A DNA stretch of 16,514 nt from assembly GCA_017995495.1 (NCBI GenBank), contig JAGOIS010000015.1, positions 1 through 16,514 on the forward strand, given 5' to 3'. The stretch's first letter is position 1; each line of letters opens with the position of its first letter. The translations under genes were made by a program, and so were the position numbers. Under the pieces are notes generated by a model. The model did no database searches. It was given only the letters and a program-made list of their open reading frames with translations, and was not told the DNA's origin. Shown one piece after another: positions 1,375-14,464 of this stretch. Source of the stretch: Candidatus Cloacimonadota bacterium (GTDB lineage: Bacteria > Cloacimonadota > Cloacimonadia > Cloacimonadales > Cloacimonadaceae).

Positions 1375-1824
1375 TCAGATCAGGTTGGTGAACCTCTCGT
1401 AGTCCTTCACTTCCGGCAGCAACCCCGCCTCGATCGCCTCTTTCACTGTGCGGCAGGGCAGGTTAGACTGCGTGATCTGCTCGCGGGTGATGTTCTTCAA
1501 CTGCACCTGCATCTTCTTTTGCATCGCGAACATCAGCTTGTTGTAGATGTTCGTCCAGGCTTGGGCGTTGTTGCCAGTGCTGCCGGAAAGCTTGTTGTAG
1601 AGGATCAGGTAATCCTTCAGGTTGCGCTGATACCCGGCTGAAGGCTTGAGCGCGTAGATCGCTTTCTGCGCGCTGGCAAAACCGGGCTGGCCGGGATGGT
1701 TCTCGAACTTGAACTGCTTGCGGACGTAGATCTTGCCGCCCGGTCTGCGGCGGTAGTAGATCAGATCATCCAGTTTCCCCGTGAACTCGCCCAGCAGATT
1801 TGCTCTGGTTGCTTTCATAAGCAT
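1375..1824 (-). CDS. Orphan 149-residue basic protein behind a strong promoter
   Basis: I do not recognise a characterised family. The product is soluble, basic and has no signal peptide or membrane segment. The N-terminal third carries a striking pattern, GEFTGKLDDLIYYRRRPGG then KIYVRKQF and NHPGQPGFASAQKAIYAL. The C-terminal two thirds look helical. The N-terminal pattern (a G-x-GK-x-D start, a YxR strand pair, then an Asn/Pro-rich turn before an alpha helix) weakly recalls DUF6266-type proteins of Bacteroidota; this is inference only. Two start codons are possible, ATG at 1824 and ATG at 1818. The Shine-Dalgarno AAAGGAG (1829-1835) is 4 or 10 bases away respectively, so the choice is open. 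A near-consensus promoter and a long palindrome lie upstream, suggesting the gene is well expressed. Confidence 0.8.
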   Translation of the reverse strand: MLMKATRANLLGEFTGKLDDLIYYRRRPGGKIYVRKQFKFENHPGQPGFASAQKAIYALKPSAGYQRNLKDYLILYNKLSGSTGNNAQAWTNIYNKLMFAMQKKMQVQLKNITREQITQSNLPCRTVKEAIEAGLLPEVKDYERFTNLI

Positions 1825-1893: not shown

Positions 1894-1923
1894 ATAATAT
1901 AAGCGGCCTGTTCCCAATGTCAA
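1894..1923 (-). promoter_or_regulatory. Sigma-70-type promoter of the 149-residue protein
   Basis: Read on the minus strand, a perfect -35 TTGACA (1918-1923) is separated by 18 bases from -10 TATTAT (1894-1899, 5 of 6 consensus matches). It lies about 70 bases upstream of the start codon. It is the best promoter seen in the window. The palindrome at 1930-2000 ends six bases upstream of the -35, so a protein bound there could touch RNA polymerase. Confidence 0.75.
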
Positions 1924-1929
1924 CACAGT

Positions 1930-2000
1930 ATCAATACGGAATAAATACGGAATCAATACGGATGAAATCCGTATTGATTCCGTATTTATTCCGTATTGAT
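1930..2000. repeat. Perfect 34-bp inverted repeat built of 11-bp units (copy 1)
   Basis: Two 34-base arms pair perfectly around a 3-base loop GAA (1964-1966). Without its first A, each arm is three 11-base units: TCAATACGGAA, TAAATACGGAA and TCAATACGGAT. The other arm holds the same three in reverse. The whole 71 bases recur identically, in the same orientation, at 10851-10921. No T tract follows on either side, so it is not a standard intrinsic terminator, and no target duplication is visible. It could be a multi-site operator, a cruciform-forming element or a mobile palindromic repeat. Confidence 0.95.
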
Positions 2001-2034
2001 CGCGGGAGGGAAGGGGTGGAAAGGGGATGAAAAT

Positions 2035-2388: not shown

Positions 2389-4505
<2,117 letters not shown>

Positions 4506-9184: not shown

Positions 9185-10726
9185 TTAACCCCAGTATTTC
9201 CGGTCCAGGGTCCGGTATTGGATGGCCTCGGCAATGTGGTCACTGGTGATGCTGGCCAGGCCCTCGAGATCGGCAATGGTGCGTGAAACCTTGAGGATGC
9301 GGTCGAACACCCGGGCGGAGTAGCCCAAGTGGTCAATGGCATGCTGCATCTGGGCCTGGCTGGCCTCGTCGAGCTGGCAGTATTTGCGCAGCAGCCGGGA
9401 ATTCATCTGGGCGTTGCAGAAAATGCCTTCCTGGGCATAGCGTGCGCGCTGGATCTGGCGGGCTTGGTTGACTCGGGCGCGGATGTCCGACGAACGGTCT
9501 CCGGAGGGCAGGCTGGCCAAGTCCGTGTAGCTTACGCTGGGTACCTCCACGTGGATGTCGATCCGGTCCAGAAGCGGTCCTGAGACCCGGCCACGGTAAC
9601 GCGCGATGGAGCCCGGCTCGCAGGAACATACGTGGTTGGGGATGTTGGCCCCGTAATAGCCGCAGGGACAGGGATTCATGGAGGCGATGAGCATGAAATC
9701 CGCGGGAAAGGTGAGGCTGCTGGCAGCCCGGGAAATGGTGACGATCCCGTCTTCCAGCGGTTGGCGCATCACTTCCAGCACTCCGCGTTTGAATTCCGGC
9801 AGCTCGTCCAGGAAGAGCACACCAAAATGGGCCAGTGAAACCTCGCCGGGACGCGGGAAGGTGCCGCCTCCAATGAGTCCGTTTTCGCTGCAGGAATGAT
9901 GGGGACTGCGGAACGGCCGGGTGGTGATGATGCCATTTCTGAAGTTCTTCGAATAACCCGCCACGGAATGGATCTTGGTGGCCTCCAAAGCCTCATCCAG
10001 AGAGAGCTCCGGCAGAATGGTGGGCACGCGGCGCGCCAGCATGGTCTTGCCGCTGCCGGGAGGTCCGATCATCAGCAGGTTGTGTCCACCCGCGGCCGAA
10101 ACCTCCAGGGCACGTTTCACCTGATACTGTCCTTTGACGTCGTGCATGTCCAGAGGGAAATCGTTGAGCACGGAGAATATCTTGTCCTTGTCAACCGTTG
10201 CCGGCTTGATCTCAATTTCGCCTCTCAGAAACTGCACCGCCTCCCGCAGCGAAGTGACGGGAATAACCTTCAGATCGTCAATTATCGCGGCTTCCTCGGC
10301 ATTTTCATAAGGCAGCACCAGGGCGTCCATCCCGTCCCTTTTGGCGGCCAGGGCGATGGGCAGCACGCCTTTCACGGGCCTCAGATTGCCATCCAGAGAG
10401 AGTTCTCCGATCATGGCCGTGCTGTTCAGGTATTCCACCGGCAGCTGTTTGATGCTTTGCAGCACGGAGATGGCGATGGGCAGGTCCAGCGCGGCGCTGT
10501 CTTTCTTGATGTCCGCCGGGGCCAGGTTGATGGTGAAGCGCTTGATGGCGGCCTCAAAACCGGAGTTGGCCAGCGCGGCGAAAATGCGGTCCTTGCTTTC
10601 CTTCACGGCGTTTGAGGCCATGCCAACGATGTTCACGGAGTACATCTGGCCGGCGCTGTCGCACTCCACCGTCAGGAGTTGGCCGTCGATGCCGATCGTG
10701 GTGTATGTCTTTACTATTCCTACCAT
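9185..10726 (-). CDS. comM: ComM/YifB Mg-chelatase-like AAA+ ATPase (branch migration in transformation)
   Basis: ComM is a hexameric helicase that widens the joint molecule made by RecA during natural transformation. At 513 residues it is full length. Residues 1-165 are the Lon-protease-like N-domain (NIVGMASNAVKESKDRI, NLAPADIKKDSAALDLPIA, GELSLDG). The AAA+ core has Walker A GPPGSGKT (221-228), Walker B VLFLDELPEF (303-312) and SGPLLDRIDI (382-391). The cysteine cluster NPCPCGYYG (351-359) and CSC (367-369), typical of YifB proteins, is complete. The C-terminal Mg_chelatase_C part ends the protein. The start has AAGGA nine bases upstream. The palindrome copy 2 lies 124 bases before it. With dprA in the same window, this gives two transformation-related genes in separate runs. 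Confidence 0.95.
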   Translation of the reverse strand: MVGIVKTYTTIGIDGQLLTVECDSAGQMYSVNIVGMASNAVKESKDRIFAALANSGFEAAIKRFTINLAPADIKKDSAALDLPIAISVLQSIKQLPVEYLNSTAMIGELSLDGNLRPVKGVLPIALAAKRDGMDALVLPYENAEEAAIIDDLKVIPVTSLREAVQFLRGEIEIKPATVDKDKIFSVLNDFPLDMHDVKGQYQVKRALEVSAAGGHNLLMIGPPGSGKTMLARRVPTILPELSLDEALEATKIHSVAGYSKNFRNGIITTRPFRSPHHSCSENGLIGGGTFPRPGEVSLAHFGVLFLDELPEFKRGVLEVMRQPLEDGIVTISRAASSLTFPADFMLIASMNPCPCGYYGANIPNHVCSCEPGSIARYRGRVSGPLLDRIDIHVEVPSVSYTDLASLPSGDRSSDIRARVNQARQIQRARYAQEGIFCNAQMNSRLLRKYCQLDEASQAQMQHAIDHLGYSARVFDRILKVSRTIADLEGLASITSDHIAEAIQYRTLDRKYWG

Positions 10727-11040
10727 TTACTCGCGTCCTTGCTCTGATTGTCAGTTCAAATCACACAATTGGGCATTGCAGTTCGCGTCAAGGGAAAATG
10801 TGCGTGAAACAATTGGCTCGGAGTGGATTTTTACTTCCACCGTTCTGGCGATCAATACGGAATAAATACGGAATCAATACGGATGAAATCCGTATTGATT
10901 CCGTATTTATTCCGTATTGATCACCGGTGTTAAGCAAAGATTTTGCTGTTGTCGATGCTCTTGCTTCGCTGGAGGTAAGCGCGAAGCCCGATATGGCATG
11001 GCGGCCCGAAGAACCAGATGCCGGTCTGATCCATGGCTGG
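10727..11040. other. Gene-free stretch upstream of comM and downstream of the glucanase genes
   Basis: No convincing gene. It holds palindrome copy 2 and, nearer the glucanase stop, two modest hairpins: 10933-10947 (AGCAAA/TTTGCT) and 10963-10987 (GCTTCGC/GCGAAGC). CACCGGTG (10922-10929) is a perfect 8-mer palindrome. None has a good T tract on the minus strand, so the end of the glucanase transcript is unclear. I see no convincing promoter for comM: a TTGACG has no good -10 at normal spacing. Confidence 0.6.
10850..10922. repeat. Perfect 35-bp inverted repeat built of 11-bp units (copy 2)
   Basis: Identical over 71 bases, including the GAA loop and orientation, to the repeat at 1930-2000, with one further paired base on each side (G/C). 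It lies between the 3' end of the glucanase cassette and the start of comM, the same kind of position as copy 1, which lies between the end of dprA and the next promoter. Confidence 0.95.
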
Positions 11041-12621
11041 CTATTTCATCAGGATCATTTTTCGGATCACGGTCTGGGAGCCTGATTGAAGCCGGCAGAA
11101 GTAAATACCGCTGGGAAGATCCTGGGCATCCCAATCCAGCTGATGAGGTCCGGAAGGCAGGATCTGATCTATAAGAGTGGCGATATTTCTGCCTTTCAGA
11201 TCGAAGATCTCCAGCCTGACTTTTCCGGGGACGGCAAGCTCAAAACTGATCCGGGTGCTGGGATTGAAGGGATTGGGATAATTCTGGCCCAGCCAAATGC
11301 CTGAGGGCGCGGCAACAGGGTCGGCGGAGCTGACCACGCCGCCGGCAGGCACAAAACTGAAGCTGCTGAGGATTACCTCTTGCGGAAACACGGGCGGAGA
11401 TCCATAATACCAGAGGTTGATGTGCACGCGGGGCTGTTCCGGACGTGGTATATGGGGCCCGGCGTAGGTCCACTGTGTGATCAGGCTGGATGGAGATTCG
11501 TCCGCCGGGCCGCCTCTCCAGGCACGGCATTCCACCCGGTCCGGCAGCCAGCGGATGGCGTGGCTGGAAACTTCCGTGGCCCCAAATACCGTGCCATAAC
11601 GGAAGATATTGCCTGGCCAATCCCAAGGCTGCGCCACAAACTGGCCAACTTGGTTTCCGGGAGTTCCCCAGAGGCTGTATTCGATATCGAACTCGTTGTA
11701 GGGATTCCACCAGGAGGCGTCCGGATCCCAGCAAGTGCTGTATTGCCAGAGGAAGAGGCCAAGCACTGTGCGGAGATCGAGCTGATCGACGTTTCCCACG
11801 GTGGTAAAAATATAATCACCATAGCCAAGAGTATCCGCCAGGGTAATTTCCGTGCTGTACCAGACATCGCCGCTTTGCCGGATGGTCATGTGGAGGCGGT
11901 CAGAGCTGTCCACCCAGACATTTTGGGCTGAGTCACTGAAGTTGTTGGGTCCGGGACCATAAAATCCGGGACCTTTCACGCGCCAGGTCCGTTGCGAAAA
12001 CTCCAGGCTGCGCCCGCCGGGAAAGTCGTTCCACTGAACGTCGTCGATGGTGGGATATGATGTGCTGTAACAAGTTATTTGGTCGTAACATAAAGTGGCT
12101 GCCGGAACGCCTGGGCTTTGCAGAAGCCCCAAAACAAGGCGCATGGCCGCTGTTCCCGCTGGCGCGGGTTCGCTGAGCAATTCGAAGGCCAGATACTCGT
12201 TCTGAGGCGAGAAGGCATCCGCCACAGTATAGGTTTCAAGATCGATAAATCCGCCTCCGGCATTAAACCATTCCACCTTGATCCGCGCAGTGCTGGCCCC
12301 CGTGAGAGCTGCCCCGGAAGGGATCAAAGCGTGGCCGGCGATCCGCCACTGCTCACCAACCTGGCAATCAAGCTGCTGCCAAAAGCCGGATTCGTTCTCT
12401 GAGCCGGAATTCTGGCCGCTTACCCTGGCCGCGGTTGAGCCGTGCCAAGCCGTGTCTGTGGACCCTATGACGCCAAACTGGTCCCAGCCCCTGAAAACAG
12501 CTTCGCCGGAGCCGGCGATCTCAAAACTGGGATTGGCTAATGCGCATTGAGCCCGCAACCCGGCCATCAAACCAAGTCCAAGCAGGAGCGTCAGCAGCAA
12601 GGAAATTCGCGAGTAGTTCAT
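11041..12621 (-). CDS. Secreted GH16-like glucanase with N-terminal binding-like domain and sorting tail
   Basis: I place the start at 12621 (526 residues). This ATG has AGGA seven bases upstream and begins a proper signal peptide (MNYSRISLLLTLLLGLGLMAGLRA). The frame stays open to an ATG at 12660, but that adds 13 polar residues and overlaps the preceding gene. Residues 28-186 look like a galactose-binding-like carbohydrate-binding domain (NPSFEI...GWDQFG start, typical of CBM4/9-like folds). Residues 190-427 form a beta-sandwich with NEFDIEYSLWG (309-319), the GH16 ExDxE motif: E310 nucleophile, D312, E314 acid/base. This spacing lacks the extra residue of laminarinases. Residues 446-526 are the sorting tail (NYPNPFNPSTRISF...KMILMK). 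It is the last gene of a glucan-degradation cassette. Exact substrate is unknown. Confidence 0.82.
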   Translation of the reverse strand: MNYSRISLLLTLLLGLGLMAGLRAQCALANPSFEIAGSGEAVFRGWDQFGVIGSTDTAWHGSTAARVSGQNSGSENESGFWQQLDCQVGEQWRIAGHALIPSGAALTGASTARIKVEWFNAGGGFIDLETYTVADAFSPQNEYLAFELLSEPAPAGTAAMRLVLGLLQSPGVPAATLCYDQITCYSTSYPTIDDVQWNDFPGGRSLEFSQRTWRVKGPGFYGPGPNNFSDSAQNVWVDSSDRLHMTIRQSGDVWYSTEITLADTLGYGDYIFTTVGNVDQLDLRTVLGLFLWQYSTCWDPDASWWNPYNEFDIEYSLWGTPGNQVGQFVAQPWDWPGNIFRYGTVFGATEVSSHAIRWLPDRVECRAWRGGPADESPSSLITQWTYAGPHIPRPEQPRVHINLWYYGSPPVFPQEVILSSFSFVPAGGVVSSADPVAAPSGIWLGQNYPNPFNPSTRISFELAVPGKVRLEIFDLKGRNIATLIDQILPSGPHQLDWDAQDLPSGIYFCRLQSGSQTVIRKMILMK

Positions 12622-12640
12622 AAATCTATCCTGGGAAAGG

Positions 12641-14464
12641 TCATTCAAAACAAATATCATCCAGATAGAAGGTTACGGGCAGGCCTTTGCCGGCCAAGGT
12701 CCAGTAAAAAGGCGTCCGCACCTGGGACAGGTCCAGGTTCTTGAGGATGATCTGGTGGCGTTTCCACTTCGTTGTCAACTTCACGTTTGCCAACTGGGCG
12801 GAAACAGAGTCCGGATACTTGGCGTCCGGGCTGTCCAGGCCAACGCCGAATGAGATCATTTCACCGCCATAGTCGCTTCTTGCCCAAAAGCTTAACCTCT
12901 TTGCTCCGCTGAGGTCATAACCCCCGGGAAGATCACCCCAGTTATTGGGTGGATCCTGCCAGGCCACGCCAACCCAGGTATCCGACGGCGCGCAGTGAAA
13001 TTTAAGGCAGGTCTCACCGCTGCGGGGCGTTTCACGCGCGGCCGGGTCCATGCTCAGGGACTGATGATCGCCCATCCAGCCAGACGGAGCCCAGGGTTGA
13101 GGCGCAAGGTCGGAATAGACTGAGAGCGGAAGTTTGAGCCTCGGAGTGCGGGTCTCGCCCTCCACCTTGATGGGTACATTCGCCGTGGCGGCCCCGCCAG
13201 CGCCATCTGAAACTTCCACATAAAGACGATACAGGCCTCCACCGGACAGCAGCAATTCGGCGCTGGAGGAGGAAGAACGGATGATCGCGCCTCCCAGTTC
13301 CAAAGGCTGCCACCAGGTTTCGCCGAAGGTAAGGTATTCCGGGGCTTCCAGGCACAGCTTCCACTTCACTTTCAGCTTCGCGCCCTCGGGATCCTCCGCT
13401 GCCAGGACGGCCTTCAGCCTGGCTCCGGCCTGTACGGTATCCGGCCCCTCCAGGCTGAGGGAGCTGATCCCGGGGCAAAGGTTGGCCGGCGCTTTTCCGC
13501 TCCAAATTTCGGTCATGGAGTCCACCGGGGCGAGTTTTTCGCCGCTGGGCAAAAACATGCCGAACCAGGTGGCGGTCGCTTCGGGCTTGGAGCCCCAGAT
13601 GAAGGCGCAGCCGCCCAGGCAGAGGCTGTCGGCCAGGCAGCCCTGGGCAAAAAAGTCCTTGTAGATCTGGCCTTTTTGGGTGCTGGAGGGTTCCAGCGGA
13701 ACGCCGAAACCGGAGAGGGCGGATTCCCAGGCCCCGGGAGGGCCGAATTCCGTAACCAGATAGGGTTTGCTGCCTCCCAGGGCGCGGTATCTGGCGGGCA
13801 GCGAGGGCAGGCCGCCATAGGAGTTCACGCCCATAATATCTATGTCCGGACACAGCTTGTGGACAGCTTCCACCCGCTTTCCGCCGATATCGGCAGTTAC
13901 CACCATGGTGGGGTGCAGGGGGTCCAACTCATGGATCATGGCAGCGAGGTCCTGGATGTGGTTCCAGAGGGCGGGATCGCCTGCTTCGCCGATCCCCTCC
14001 ATTTCGTTGCCGATCCCCCAGAGCAGCAGCGCGGGGTGGTCCTTATAAGCCAACACGTCGCGGTGGACGCGCTCCTTTTGTTCCGCCAGCTGCGCCGGAT
14101 CGTGGTAATCGAAACCGTGGCGTTCGTGGCCCAGCCAGTGCCCCACGATCACCGTGAGGCCCAGGCTTTGCGCGAGGTCCAGCTGTTCCGGCAGGGTGGC
14201 GCCCACCCCCCAGGTGCGGAAAGTGTTGGCTCCGCTGGCGGCCAGCAATTCTTTGGAACCGTCGCCACCCGCCCCGAACACGTAGTAGGGCTGGCCGTTC
14301 CGCAGCAGCTGCCAGCCTCCGGACGGGGTTTGAACCACTTGCACCGGAACCGCCGCGGCCTCCAGGGCGAAAGCCGCGAGCAGCAGCAGCGCGGACAGCA
14401 GGGCTTGGCCCAGCCTGCCGGGATTCACTTCAGCAGAACGCATTTCTTCAGTTCGGAACCCCAT
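12641..14464 (-). CDS. Secreted clan GH-A glycoside hydrolase with Ig-like and carbohydrate-binding-like domains
   Basis: A TIM barrel (about 55-345) carries WGIGNEMEG with acid/base E154 and LVTEFGPPG with nucleophile E239, the two catalytic Glu of clan GH-A (GH2/GH5-like). An Ig-like domain follows (about 350-445, ending YRLYVEVSDGAGG), then a C-terminal jelly-roll (about 455-607, ending FYLDDICFE) like a carbohydrate-binding module. Barrel plus Ig beside GH16 recalls GH158 endo-1,3-beta-glucanases, but that is only a guess. Unlike its neighbours it has no sorting tail. The signal peptide core is ALLSALLLLAAFALEAAA. The start is uncertain: ATG 14464 (weak GGA six bases away), ATG 14443, or GTG 14428, which overlaps the upstream stop as GTGA and gives the most normal signal peptide. 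Nineteen bases separate it from the next gene. Confidence 0.82.
   Translation of the reverse strand: MGFRTEEMRSAEVNPGRLGQALLSALLLLAAFALEAAAVPVQVVQTPSGGWQLLRNGQPYYVFGAGGDGSKELLAASGANTFRTWGVGATLPEQLDLAQSLGLTVIVGHWLGHERHGFDYHDPAQLAEQKERVHRDVLAYKDHPALLLWGIGNEMEGIGEAGDPALWNHIQDLAAMIHELDPLHPTMVVTADIGGKRVEAVHKLCPDIDIMGVNSYGGLPSLPARYRALGGSKPYLVTEFGPPGAWESALSGFGVPLEPSSTQKGQIYKDFFAQGCLADSLCLGGCAFIWGSKPEATATWFGMFLPSGEKLAPVDSMTEIWSGKAPANLCPGISSLSLEGPDTVQAGARLKAVLAAEDPEGAKLKVKWKLCLEAPEYLTFGETWWQPLELGGAIIRSSSSSAELLLSGGGLYRLYVEVSDGAGGAATANVPIKVEGETRTPRLKLPLSVYSDLAPQPWAPSGWMGDHQSLSMDPAARETPRSGETCLKFHCAPSDTWVGVAWQDPPNNWGDLPGGYDLSGAKRLSFWARSDYGGEMISFGVGLDSPDAKYPDSVSAQLANVKLTTKWKRHQIILKNLDLSQVRTPFYWTLAGKGLPVTFYLDDICFE

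Follow-up and report, generated by a model that had tools for sequence, protein, structure and literature searches.

Why would a perfect palindrome of 71 bases, assembled from 11-bp units, stand unchanged at two places in one 16,514-nucleotide stretch of a Cloacimonadota genome (the whole of which we call the window)? A first-pass annotation of this DNA had described 34-base arms, each of three 11-mers, mirrored around GAA, together with a second copy, identical and in the same orientation, and both descriptions proved exact. The arms of copy 1, at 1930-1963 and 1967-2000, are 34 nt each and 100% complementary around a GAA loop at 1964-1966, and each is made up of A + TCAATACGGAA + TAAATACGGAA + TCAATACGGAT. 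At copy 2 the inverted repeat reaches 10847-10925 at 97%, and Tandem Repeats Finder reported a period of 11 for all four arms in the window. A search of the whole window against Rfam at gathering thresholds gave no match. On balance we favour, with modest confidence, the reading that these are REP-like arrays of phased protein-binding sites, which are homogenised genome by genome and serve an IS3-family element as landing pads. The features of the window that bear on this reading are as follows.

1930..2000, no strand: array copy 1, three plus three inverted 11-bp units around loop GAA (exact sequence comparison and folding)
10851..10921, no strand: array copy 2, the same 71 bases, identical to copy 1 and in the same orientation
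2001..2011, no strand: CGCGGGAGGGA, the GC-rich 11-base step at the outside of copy 1, which is degenerate from copy to copy (flank profiles)
1375..1824, minus strand: 149-aa ORF without a match in a Pfam search; copy 1 lies upstream of it
2389..3480, minus strand: dprA (PF02481), its 3′ end on the other side of copy 1
9185..10726, minus strand: comM-like gene for a Mg-chelatase family ATPase (PF01078); copy 2 lies upstream of it
11041..12660, minus strand: gene for a protein with a Por secretion tail (PF18962), its 3′ end on the other side of copy 2
1896..1923, minus strand: promoter-like pair, TTGACA at 1918-1923 and TATATT at 1896-1901 with a 16-nt spacer, 6 nt off the edge of copy 1 (consensus match, by eye)

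In flank profiles of 29 copies from the source genome (G000) and 20 from a species of the same genus (G003), C/G-rich boxes stand at two distances from the centre, about 39-43 nt and about 50-52 nt. Each arm in the source species has three clear 11-bp units followed by one degenerate GC-rich outer step, and the feature belongs to a dispersed set of intergenic repeats, each about 95 bp long. Indeed, a 20-mer of the arm, AATACGGAATAAATACGGAA, has 28 forward and 29 reverse matches in G000 (1,493,285 bases in 194 contigs, 71% complete), with none for a reversed-pattern control, and a looser pattern finds 40 palindrome centres there, again with none in the control. Cores were compared at 33 centres obtained with a slightly different pattern, 32 of which include the full 71 bases. 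Among these 32, 27 are identical, only five distinct sequences occur, and the arms are perfect in 31; in three of the four variant sequences both arms are altered together. The expectation that unchanged copies reflect spread or homogenisation, and that symmetry is strongly kept, is therefore borne out in the source genome. Because several contigs terminate in or close to a copy, the true copy number may exceed this count, and the arrays seem to break short-read assemblies.

None of the copies lies within a gene called by a simple hexamer gene caller (0/31 in G000 and 0/20 in G003, 0/51 in total). They occupy tandem (11 in G000, 5 in G003), convergent (8 and 9), divergent (3 and 5) and contig-edge positions (9 and 1), such that convergent gaps hold 17 of the 51. 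Relative to arbitrary contig strands, 15 G000 copies have GAA as their loop and 16 have TTC. The suggestion of an iteron or operator array fares poorly here, since copies sit in convergent, tandem and divergent gaps alike, unlike a plasmid iteron set or a set of promoter-bound operators. A hairpin working at the RNA level, as a bidirectional terminator or an mRNA stabiliser at gene ends, would suit the many convergent gaps and the very stable fold (computed as single-stranded DNA, -37.8 kcal/mol against -8.79 with a standard deviation of 2.11 for 200 shuffles, z = -13.75), and 11 bp is also one turn of an A-form helix. However, no T-run follows the copies inspected, divergent gaps are used too (3/31 and 5/20), and, as judged by eye, the long hairpin is not kept in two further species, G019 and G012, where one arm is degraded or short. 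We consider such a role quite improbable.

The arrays extend beyond the source genome. The centre pattern was matched in 9 of 124 genomes of the phylum, all from one family: 40 centres in G000; 57, 57, 53 and 16 in the same-genus species G003, G011, G007 and G009; and 79, 12, 11 and 6 in the same-family species G020, G018, G065 and G033. In named genome records at least 80 loci match, and those listed come from three Cloacimonadota (Cloacimonetes) MAGs, mainly JAJBBF01 and JAKQNV01, which from their array type appear to be G011 and G009, respectively. A search of relatives for the unit, which the annotation had proposed, was thus productive, and the outcome that it had set against its own reading, namely two copies only, absent from relatives and with freely decaying arms, is excluded by the copy counts together with the core comparison. 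Plasmid and phage records gave no match to an 81-base query. Eleven stretches of viral contigs match AATACGGNATCAATACGG, but none of the 11 shows an inverted array and most repeat a few unrelated sequences, and these were rejected as candidates. One of the 11, a viral-labelled contig (IMGVR_UViG_3300042301_002270, locus L151), has three direct 11-bp AATACGG-like steps at about 2723-2740, with no visible inverted arm.

Each species has its own version of the array. For example, the first unit ends in GGT in G003, and GGG units occur in G011 and G009. Varying unit number per arm, which had been predicted, was also found: arms are 2+3 in G020, 3+4 in one G003 copy, 3+2 in one G009 copy and, by eye, about 1+4 in G019. 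Unit number and arm balance therefore vary while the 11-bp step is constant. Arms are perfect in 30 of 50 JAJBBF01 cores and in 4 of 21 G003 cores, where most share one common asymmetric base, found on the same side of the loop whichever way round the copy lies. Mean core identity within species is 0.992 in G000 (32 cores), 0.989 in G003 (21) and 0.972 in JAJBBF01 (50), compared to 0.887-0.931 between species. Copies at a shared flank in two species are no closer to each other than random cross-species pairs (0.928 for 8 pairs and 0.919 for 11 pairs, versus 0.931 and 0.915, respectively). From this pattern we infer that homogeneity probably comes from copying or re-insertion rather than from selection on each site.

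Positions are nevertheless partly shared between species. Windows adjacent to G000 arrays match G003 DNA within 800 nt of an array in 8 of 55 cases, versus 0 of 216 distant windows, and match array-adjacent JAJBBF01 DNA in 15 of 55, versus 2 of 216. Counted by array, with genome-internal repeats masked, 8/33 positions are shared with G003 and 11/33 with JAJBBF01 (10/33 and 11/33 without masking), in a comparison that covered 21 of the 57 G003 centres and 51 JAJBBF01 centres. Mostly one flank alone matches; both flanks lead to one JAJBBF01 array in three cases (window copy 1, L012 and L018), while at L022 each flank leads to a separate place. Window copy 1 is among the best of these cases: both flanks match the corresponding JAJBBF01 gap (locus L168) at 80% and 82% identity, and JAJBBF01 has its own array version there. 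At that counterpart the final array bases would, by eye, supply part of the -35 box. Gene-anchored loci read by eye across species gave a patchier picture, with arrays at locus A in 2 of 10 species (G000 and G003) and upstream of comM in 3 of 10 (G000, G007 and G008). Reading the comM locus and two gene-anchored loci throughout the genus turned up no clean empty site, and array movement was therefore not seen.

The letters of the unit change far more than these species versions imply. Upstream of comM, where G000 has an array of the AATACGG type, G007 has one of its TATCACTTGTC-type arrays, so that two unit families coexist in G007, as they do in G009. The array unit is TCATCCTTAGG in G008, TTATGTCCAGC in G012 and CACTAGGGGAT in G019, and there are two array types, GATATGGGAAG and GTTACGGAAGT, in G021 (one contig of 2,246,820 bases, which we take to be Candidatus Cloacimonas acidaminovorans). 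With at most one mismatch, TTAATCAAGCC has 50 forward and 45 reverse matches in G005, 35 and 36 in G001, 17 and 23 in G009, and 7 and 10 in G004, with none for the control. At locus C, downstream of one gene, nine of the ten matching species were read by eye; arrays occur in 6 of these 9 and belong to three unrelated families: AATACGG in G000, G003 and G011, TTAATCAAGCC in G001 and G004, and TCATCCTTAGG in G008; within the 420 nt inspected there was none in G007, G009 and G002.

Phasing at 11 bp, which the annotation had offered as an inference, recurs in these unrelated sequence families. A scan of 1,052,637 bases of family DNA gave 25 hits at lag 11, compared to 4, 11, 0, 1, 0, 1 and 1 at lags 8, 9, 10, 12, 13, 14 and 15, in a sample that was not fully blind, as extra G019 and G012 DNA was taken after arrays were first noticed there and four loci (L265, L278, L281 and L282) were picked for a known array or IS. 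Seventeen of the lag-11 hits are in G019 (in 160 kb), three in G021, two in G012 and one each in G008, G016 and G026; at this threshold 12 of 18 sampled genomes gave none, including G001, G004 and G005, which have arrays by pattern. Two further palindromes in G033 have a best period of 11, although weakly so (0.42 and 0.48). The lag-9 hits are confined to G021 (9, in 240 kb from L263-L268 and L365-L370) and G019 (2) among the sampled family genomes. Twenty genomes from beyond the family, sampled over 273,559 bases, yielded two direct lag-11 arrays, neither of them inverted by eye. These direct 11-bp arrays come from other families of the order, CCATCCCGTTA at L382:15965 (G054), directly upstream of a possible gene start, and AACAATTATGC at L378:14418 (G043), and both look operator-like.

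Thus, in one Cloacimonadota family, the unit sequence changes by lineage and the geometry stays. We tentatively raise the further possibility, which is short of probable, that this is an element class defined by geometry rather than sequence: from lineage to lineage the letters would be exchanged as a whole, in part at intergenic positions that are retained, and the copies would be driven to one sequence per genome. If so, the DNA specificity of some protein would be re-programmed along with its sites, with the IS3 element following.

The main rival to REP-like arrays is a host role, in which they would be operator-like or chromosome-organising sites for an OmpR/PhoB-type protein, binding head-to-tail on 11-bp direct repeats, or for a nucleoid protein, with specificity drifting and sites following. 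Known sites of Streptomyces PhoP are 11-bp direct repeats, as described in PMC9019756. The partly kept positions and the 53-79 copies in several genomes are also what such a role would suggest. Furthermore, promoter-like pairs point outward at 8/60, 4/40 and 14/96 array sides in three array sets versus 20/1168, 6/786 and 24/1542 in controls, although coding DNA makes up most of the control windows and array bases form part of five of the outward pairs; inward pairs in the same sets number 2, 0 and 3. However, convergent gaps are common (8/31 and 9/20) and contain no promoter needing an operator, the swap of a whole family downstream of one gene at locus C is hard to achieve for a drifting regulator, and two families stand side by side in both G007 and G009. 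We therefore regard a host role as plausible, yet on the whole unlikely. Shared positions together with swapped families are explained about equally well by a selfish repeat and by selection for a host function.

The strongest functional clue to the proposed REP-like arrays is their distance from an insertion sequence. An IS left end, TGTC-N-CGTCCTAAAAAAGTTGA or close to that, was found beside arrays at five loci, each time 47 nt from the centre; two of these ends, in G000 and G003, are remnants. Searching 49 family genomes with the 141-base left end gave 21 matches, one of which (G062) covers the internal gene only. Of the remaining 20, 16 lie exactly 47 nt from an array centre (4/4 in G009, 5/5 in G003, 6/8 in G020 and 1/1 in G007), and the repeat thus shows the fixed IS placement expected for a target of an IS3-family element. 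One of the other G020 ends is at 79 nt and one has no array by the pattern used. In G021 the array beside the left end is of the unrelated GATATGGGAAG type, with its centre 45.5 nt away, and the G026 end adjoins a direct 11-bp array. An IS inserting in both directions would be expected to leave roughly every second left end without an array; nearly all have one, and orientation therefore looks fixed. At the one whole copy read, in G021, no array was seen in the inspected bases past the right end.

The G021 element encodes OrfA (HTH_Tnp_1, under the Pfam cut-off) and OrfB (rve), the latter assigned to the IS3 family by NCBIfam at 239.6 bits against a cut-off of 160, and is flanked, by eye, by a 3-bp duplication, TAC. 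Of 14 genomes queried with the OrfB protein, 4 contained a total of 5 matches. G003 and G020 were not among them despite their left ends, and the IS bodies there are taken to be collapsed or missing in the assemblies. A similar arrangement occurs with other letters in G001, in which an IS-end-like sequence of the TGACCCGTCCTGAACCAGGTTGACC type, sometimes degenerate, lies about 55 nt from the centre at 10 of 11 arrays read (12 loci, L331-L342, one of them unresolved; the distance of 55 was checked in three), and the arm is one unit longer at the arrays that bear it. At L340 the end continues into an OrfA-like start, and the other G001 ends look like remnants. Across L331-L342, lone left ends of about 31 nt, lacking an IS body, thus recur at one distance at most of the arrays read. 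In G005, none of 7 arrays read has an IS end (8 loci, one incomplete on one side). Taken together, the fixed left-end distances indicate that the IS stops about one helical turn past the last clear unit, whatever the unit letters. Most arrays, however, lack a neighbouring IS, and G000, G011, G018, G033 and G065 gave no match to the left-end probe; the IS is therefore not what keeps the arrays.

The array itself could be a minimal, MITE-like non-autonomous transposon, each arm being an end with several transposase-binding iterons, moved by a DDE transposase encoded elsewhere. Inverted iteron arrays do resemble multi-site transposon ends, of which those of Mu and Tn7 are examples; both loop orientations occur, the asymmetric base of G003 is fixed relative to the loop in either orientation, and G019 has its 17 lag-11 hits within 160 kb. 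On the other hand, an unsystematic reading of stretches brought no autonomous element with array-type ends to notice, an interior of 3 bases leaves very little room to pair two ends, target duplications around arrays were not identified, and positions are partly common to several species. We accordingly think a MITE-like origin unlikely.

Ordinary REP or REPIN elements driven by a RAYT are a further candidate. IS200-like Y1 transposases are encoded in 9 of 13 same-genus genomes (21 matches), and an array lies 128, 368 and 178 nt from the Y1 domain of one gene each in G007, G011 and G009. Six of 20 Y1 genes examined are within 900 nt of an array, although one gene, present in two species, accounts for two of the six and one gene type, in three species, for three others. 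However, these last three, which are the genes of G007, G011 and G009, and their relative in G001 come with their own REP-like hairpins (4, 2, 5 and 14, respectively, at the loci examined), the flank profiles of G000 and G003 copies show C/G-rich boxes and no GTAG foot, and G004 and G012 have arrays with no Y1 match. Given the Y1 genes' own REPs and the arrays in genomes with no Y1 match, the arrays are not RAYT-type REPs. The RAYT was rejected as their driver because of those hairpins and because arrays do not flank the gene on both sides at the loci examined, and we hold this explanation to be very improbable.

A RAYT-REP-like system is present in the phylum in its own right. Solo IS200-like Y1 genes (L311, L312, L314 and L316) have hairpins of the form GAGTCCC-loop-GGGAC or GAGTCTC-loop-GAGACG, and a Y1 gene of G001 has two outward hairpin sets, one on each side, mostly with a 53-bp step. 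The window contains three classical REP-like hairpins with a GTAG foot, at 2132-2155, 2167-2190 and 2199-2222, starting 132 nt from copy 1 and consisting of GTAGCGCAGCATTCCAATGCTGCG and two inverted copies of the GTAGCGCATGAT kind. Loci L022 and L012 also have related hairpins close to their arrays, and in L024 the separation is about 1.8 kb.

How might REP-like arrays work, if they do serve as IS3 landing pads? Judging from the geometry, a protein would bind once per 11 bp, or helical turn, along each arm. An IS3-family transposase may dock on the array, placing the left end of its element about one turn beyond the last unit, such that arrays would act as harmless landing pads. The pattern of identities suggests that an array is copied between arrays or re-inserted at old ones; such copying or re-seeding could impose one sequence per genome and could let a new unit family take over old gaps. 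The arrays offer a test case for how dispersed non-coding repeats hold one sequence genome-wide and then switch, and for how an IS keeps its distance from repeats whose letters are host-specific. Should a host protein bind the arrays, they would represent a type of chromosome-wide site not described before, in a phylum that has, to our knowledge, seen little experimental biology.

A literature search, with subscription papers mostly outside its coverage, found no description of phased, letter-swapping arrays, and comparison is best made with several partly similar systems. The landing-pad part has precedent, as IS3-family elements that choose palindromic repeats are known: IS1397, ISKpn1 and ISPsy8 target REP/BIME palindromes according to PMC1525189. 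Like those targets (PMC1525189), the arrays are dispersed, extragenic, palindromic, species-specific and used by a particular IS3-family element. Unlike REP/BIME sequences, they are 11-bp phased arrays in which unrelated unit sequences share one geometry, and whereas IS1397 is said to insert within the REP (PMC1525189), the IS here keeps a fixed distance from the array, not entering it and facing it with the left end. With REPIN/RAYT systems the arrays share inverted doublets, extragenic location and species-specific versions (PMC2817692 and PMC3116915). They are extragenic, palindromic, multi-copy and species-specific, as REPs are defined to be, but their 6-79 copies by one pattern fall below the more than 100 usual for REPs according to PMC2817692. 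GTAG or a close form marks the REPs of Table 1 in that paper, in contrast to the arrays, which have no GTAG foot and occur on at most one side of a RAYT in the loci read; these genomes contain, besides the arrays, RAYT-REP sets of different sequence. The arrays resemble the PHO boxes of PhoP-type response regulators in their 11-bp direct repeats (PMC9019756). Unlike PHO boxes, however, they have inverted arm pairs, are not tied to promoters (17/51 are in convergent gaps) and differ in sequence between sister species. The 11-bp iterons of the ParR-parC type and multi-site transposon ends likewise consist of several phased short binding sites, but these are single loci on plasmids or at the ends of transposons, whereas the arrays are dispersed by the dozen.
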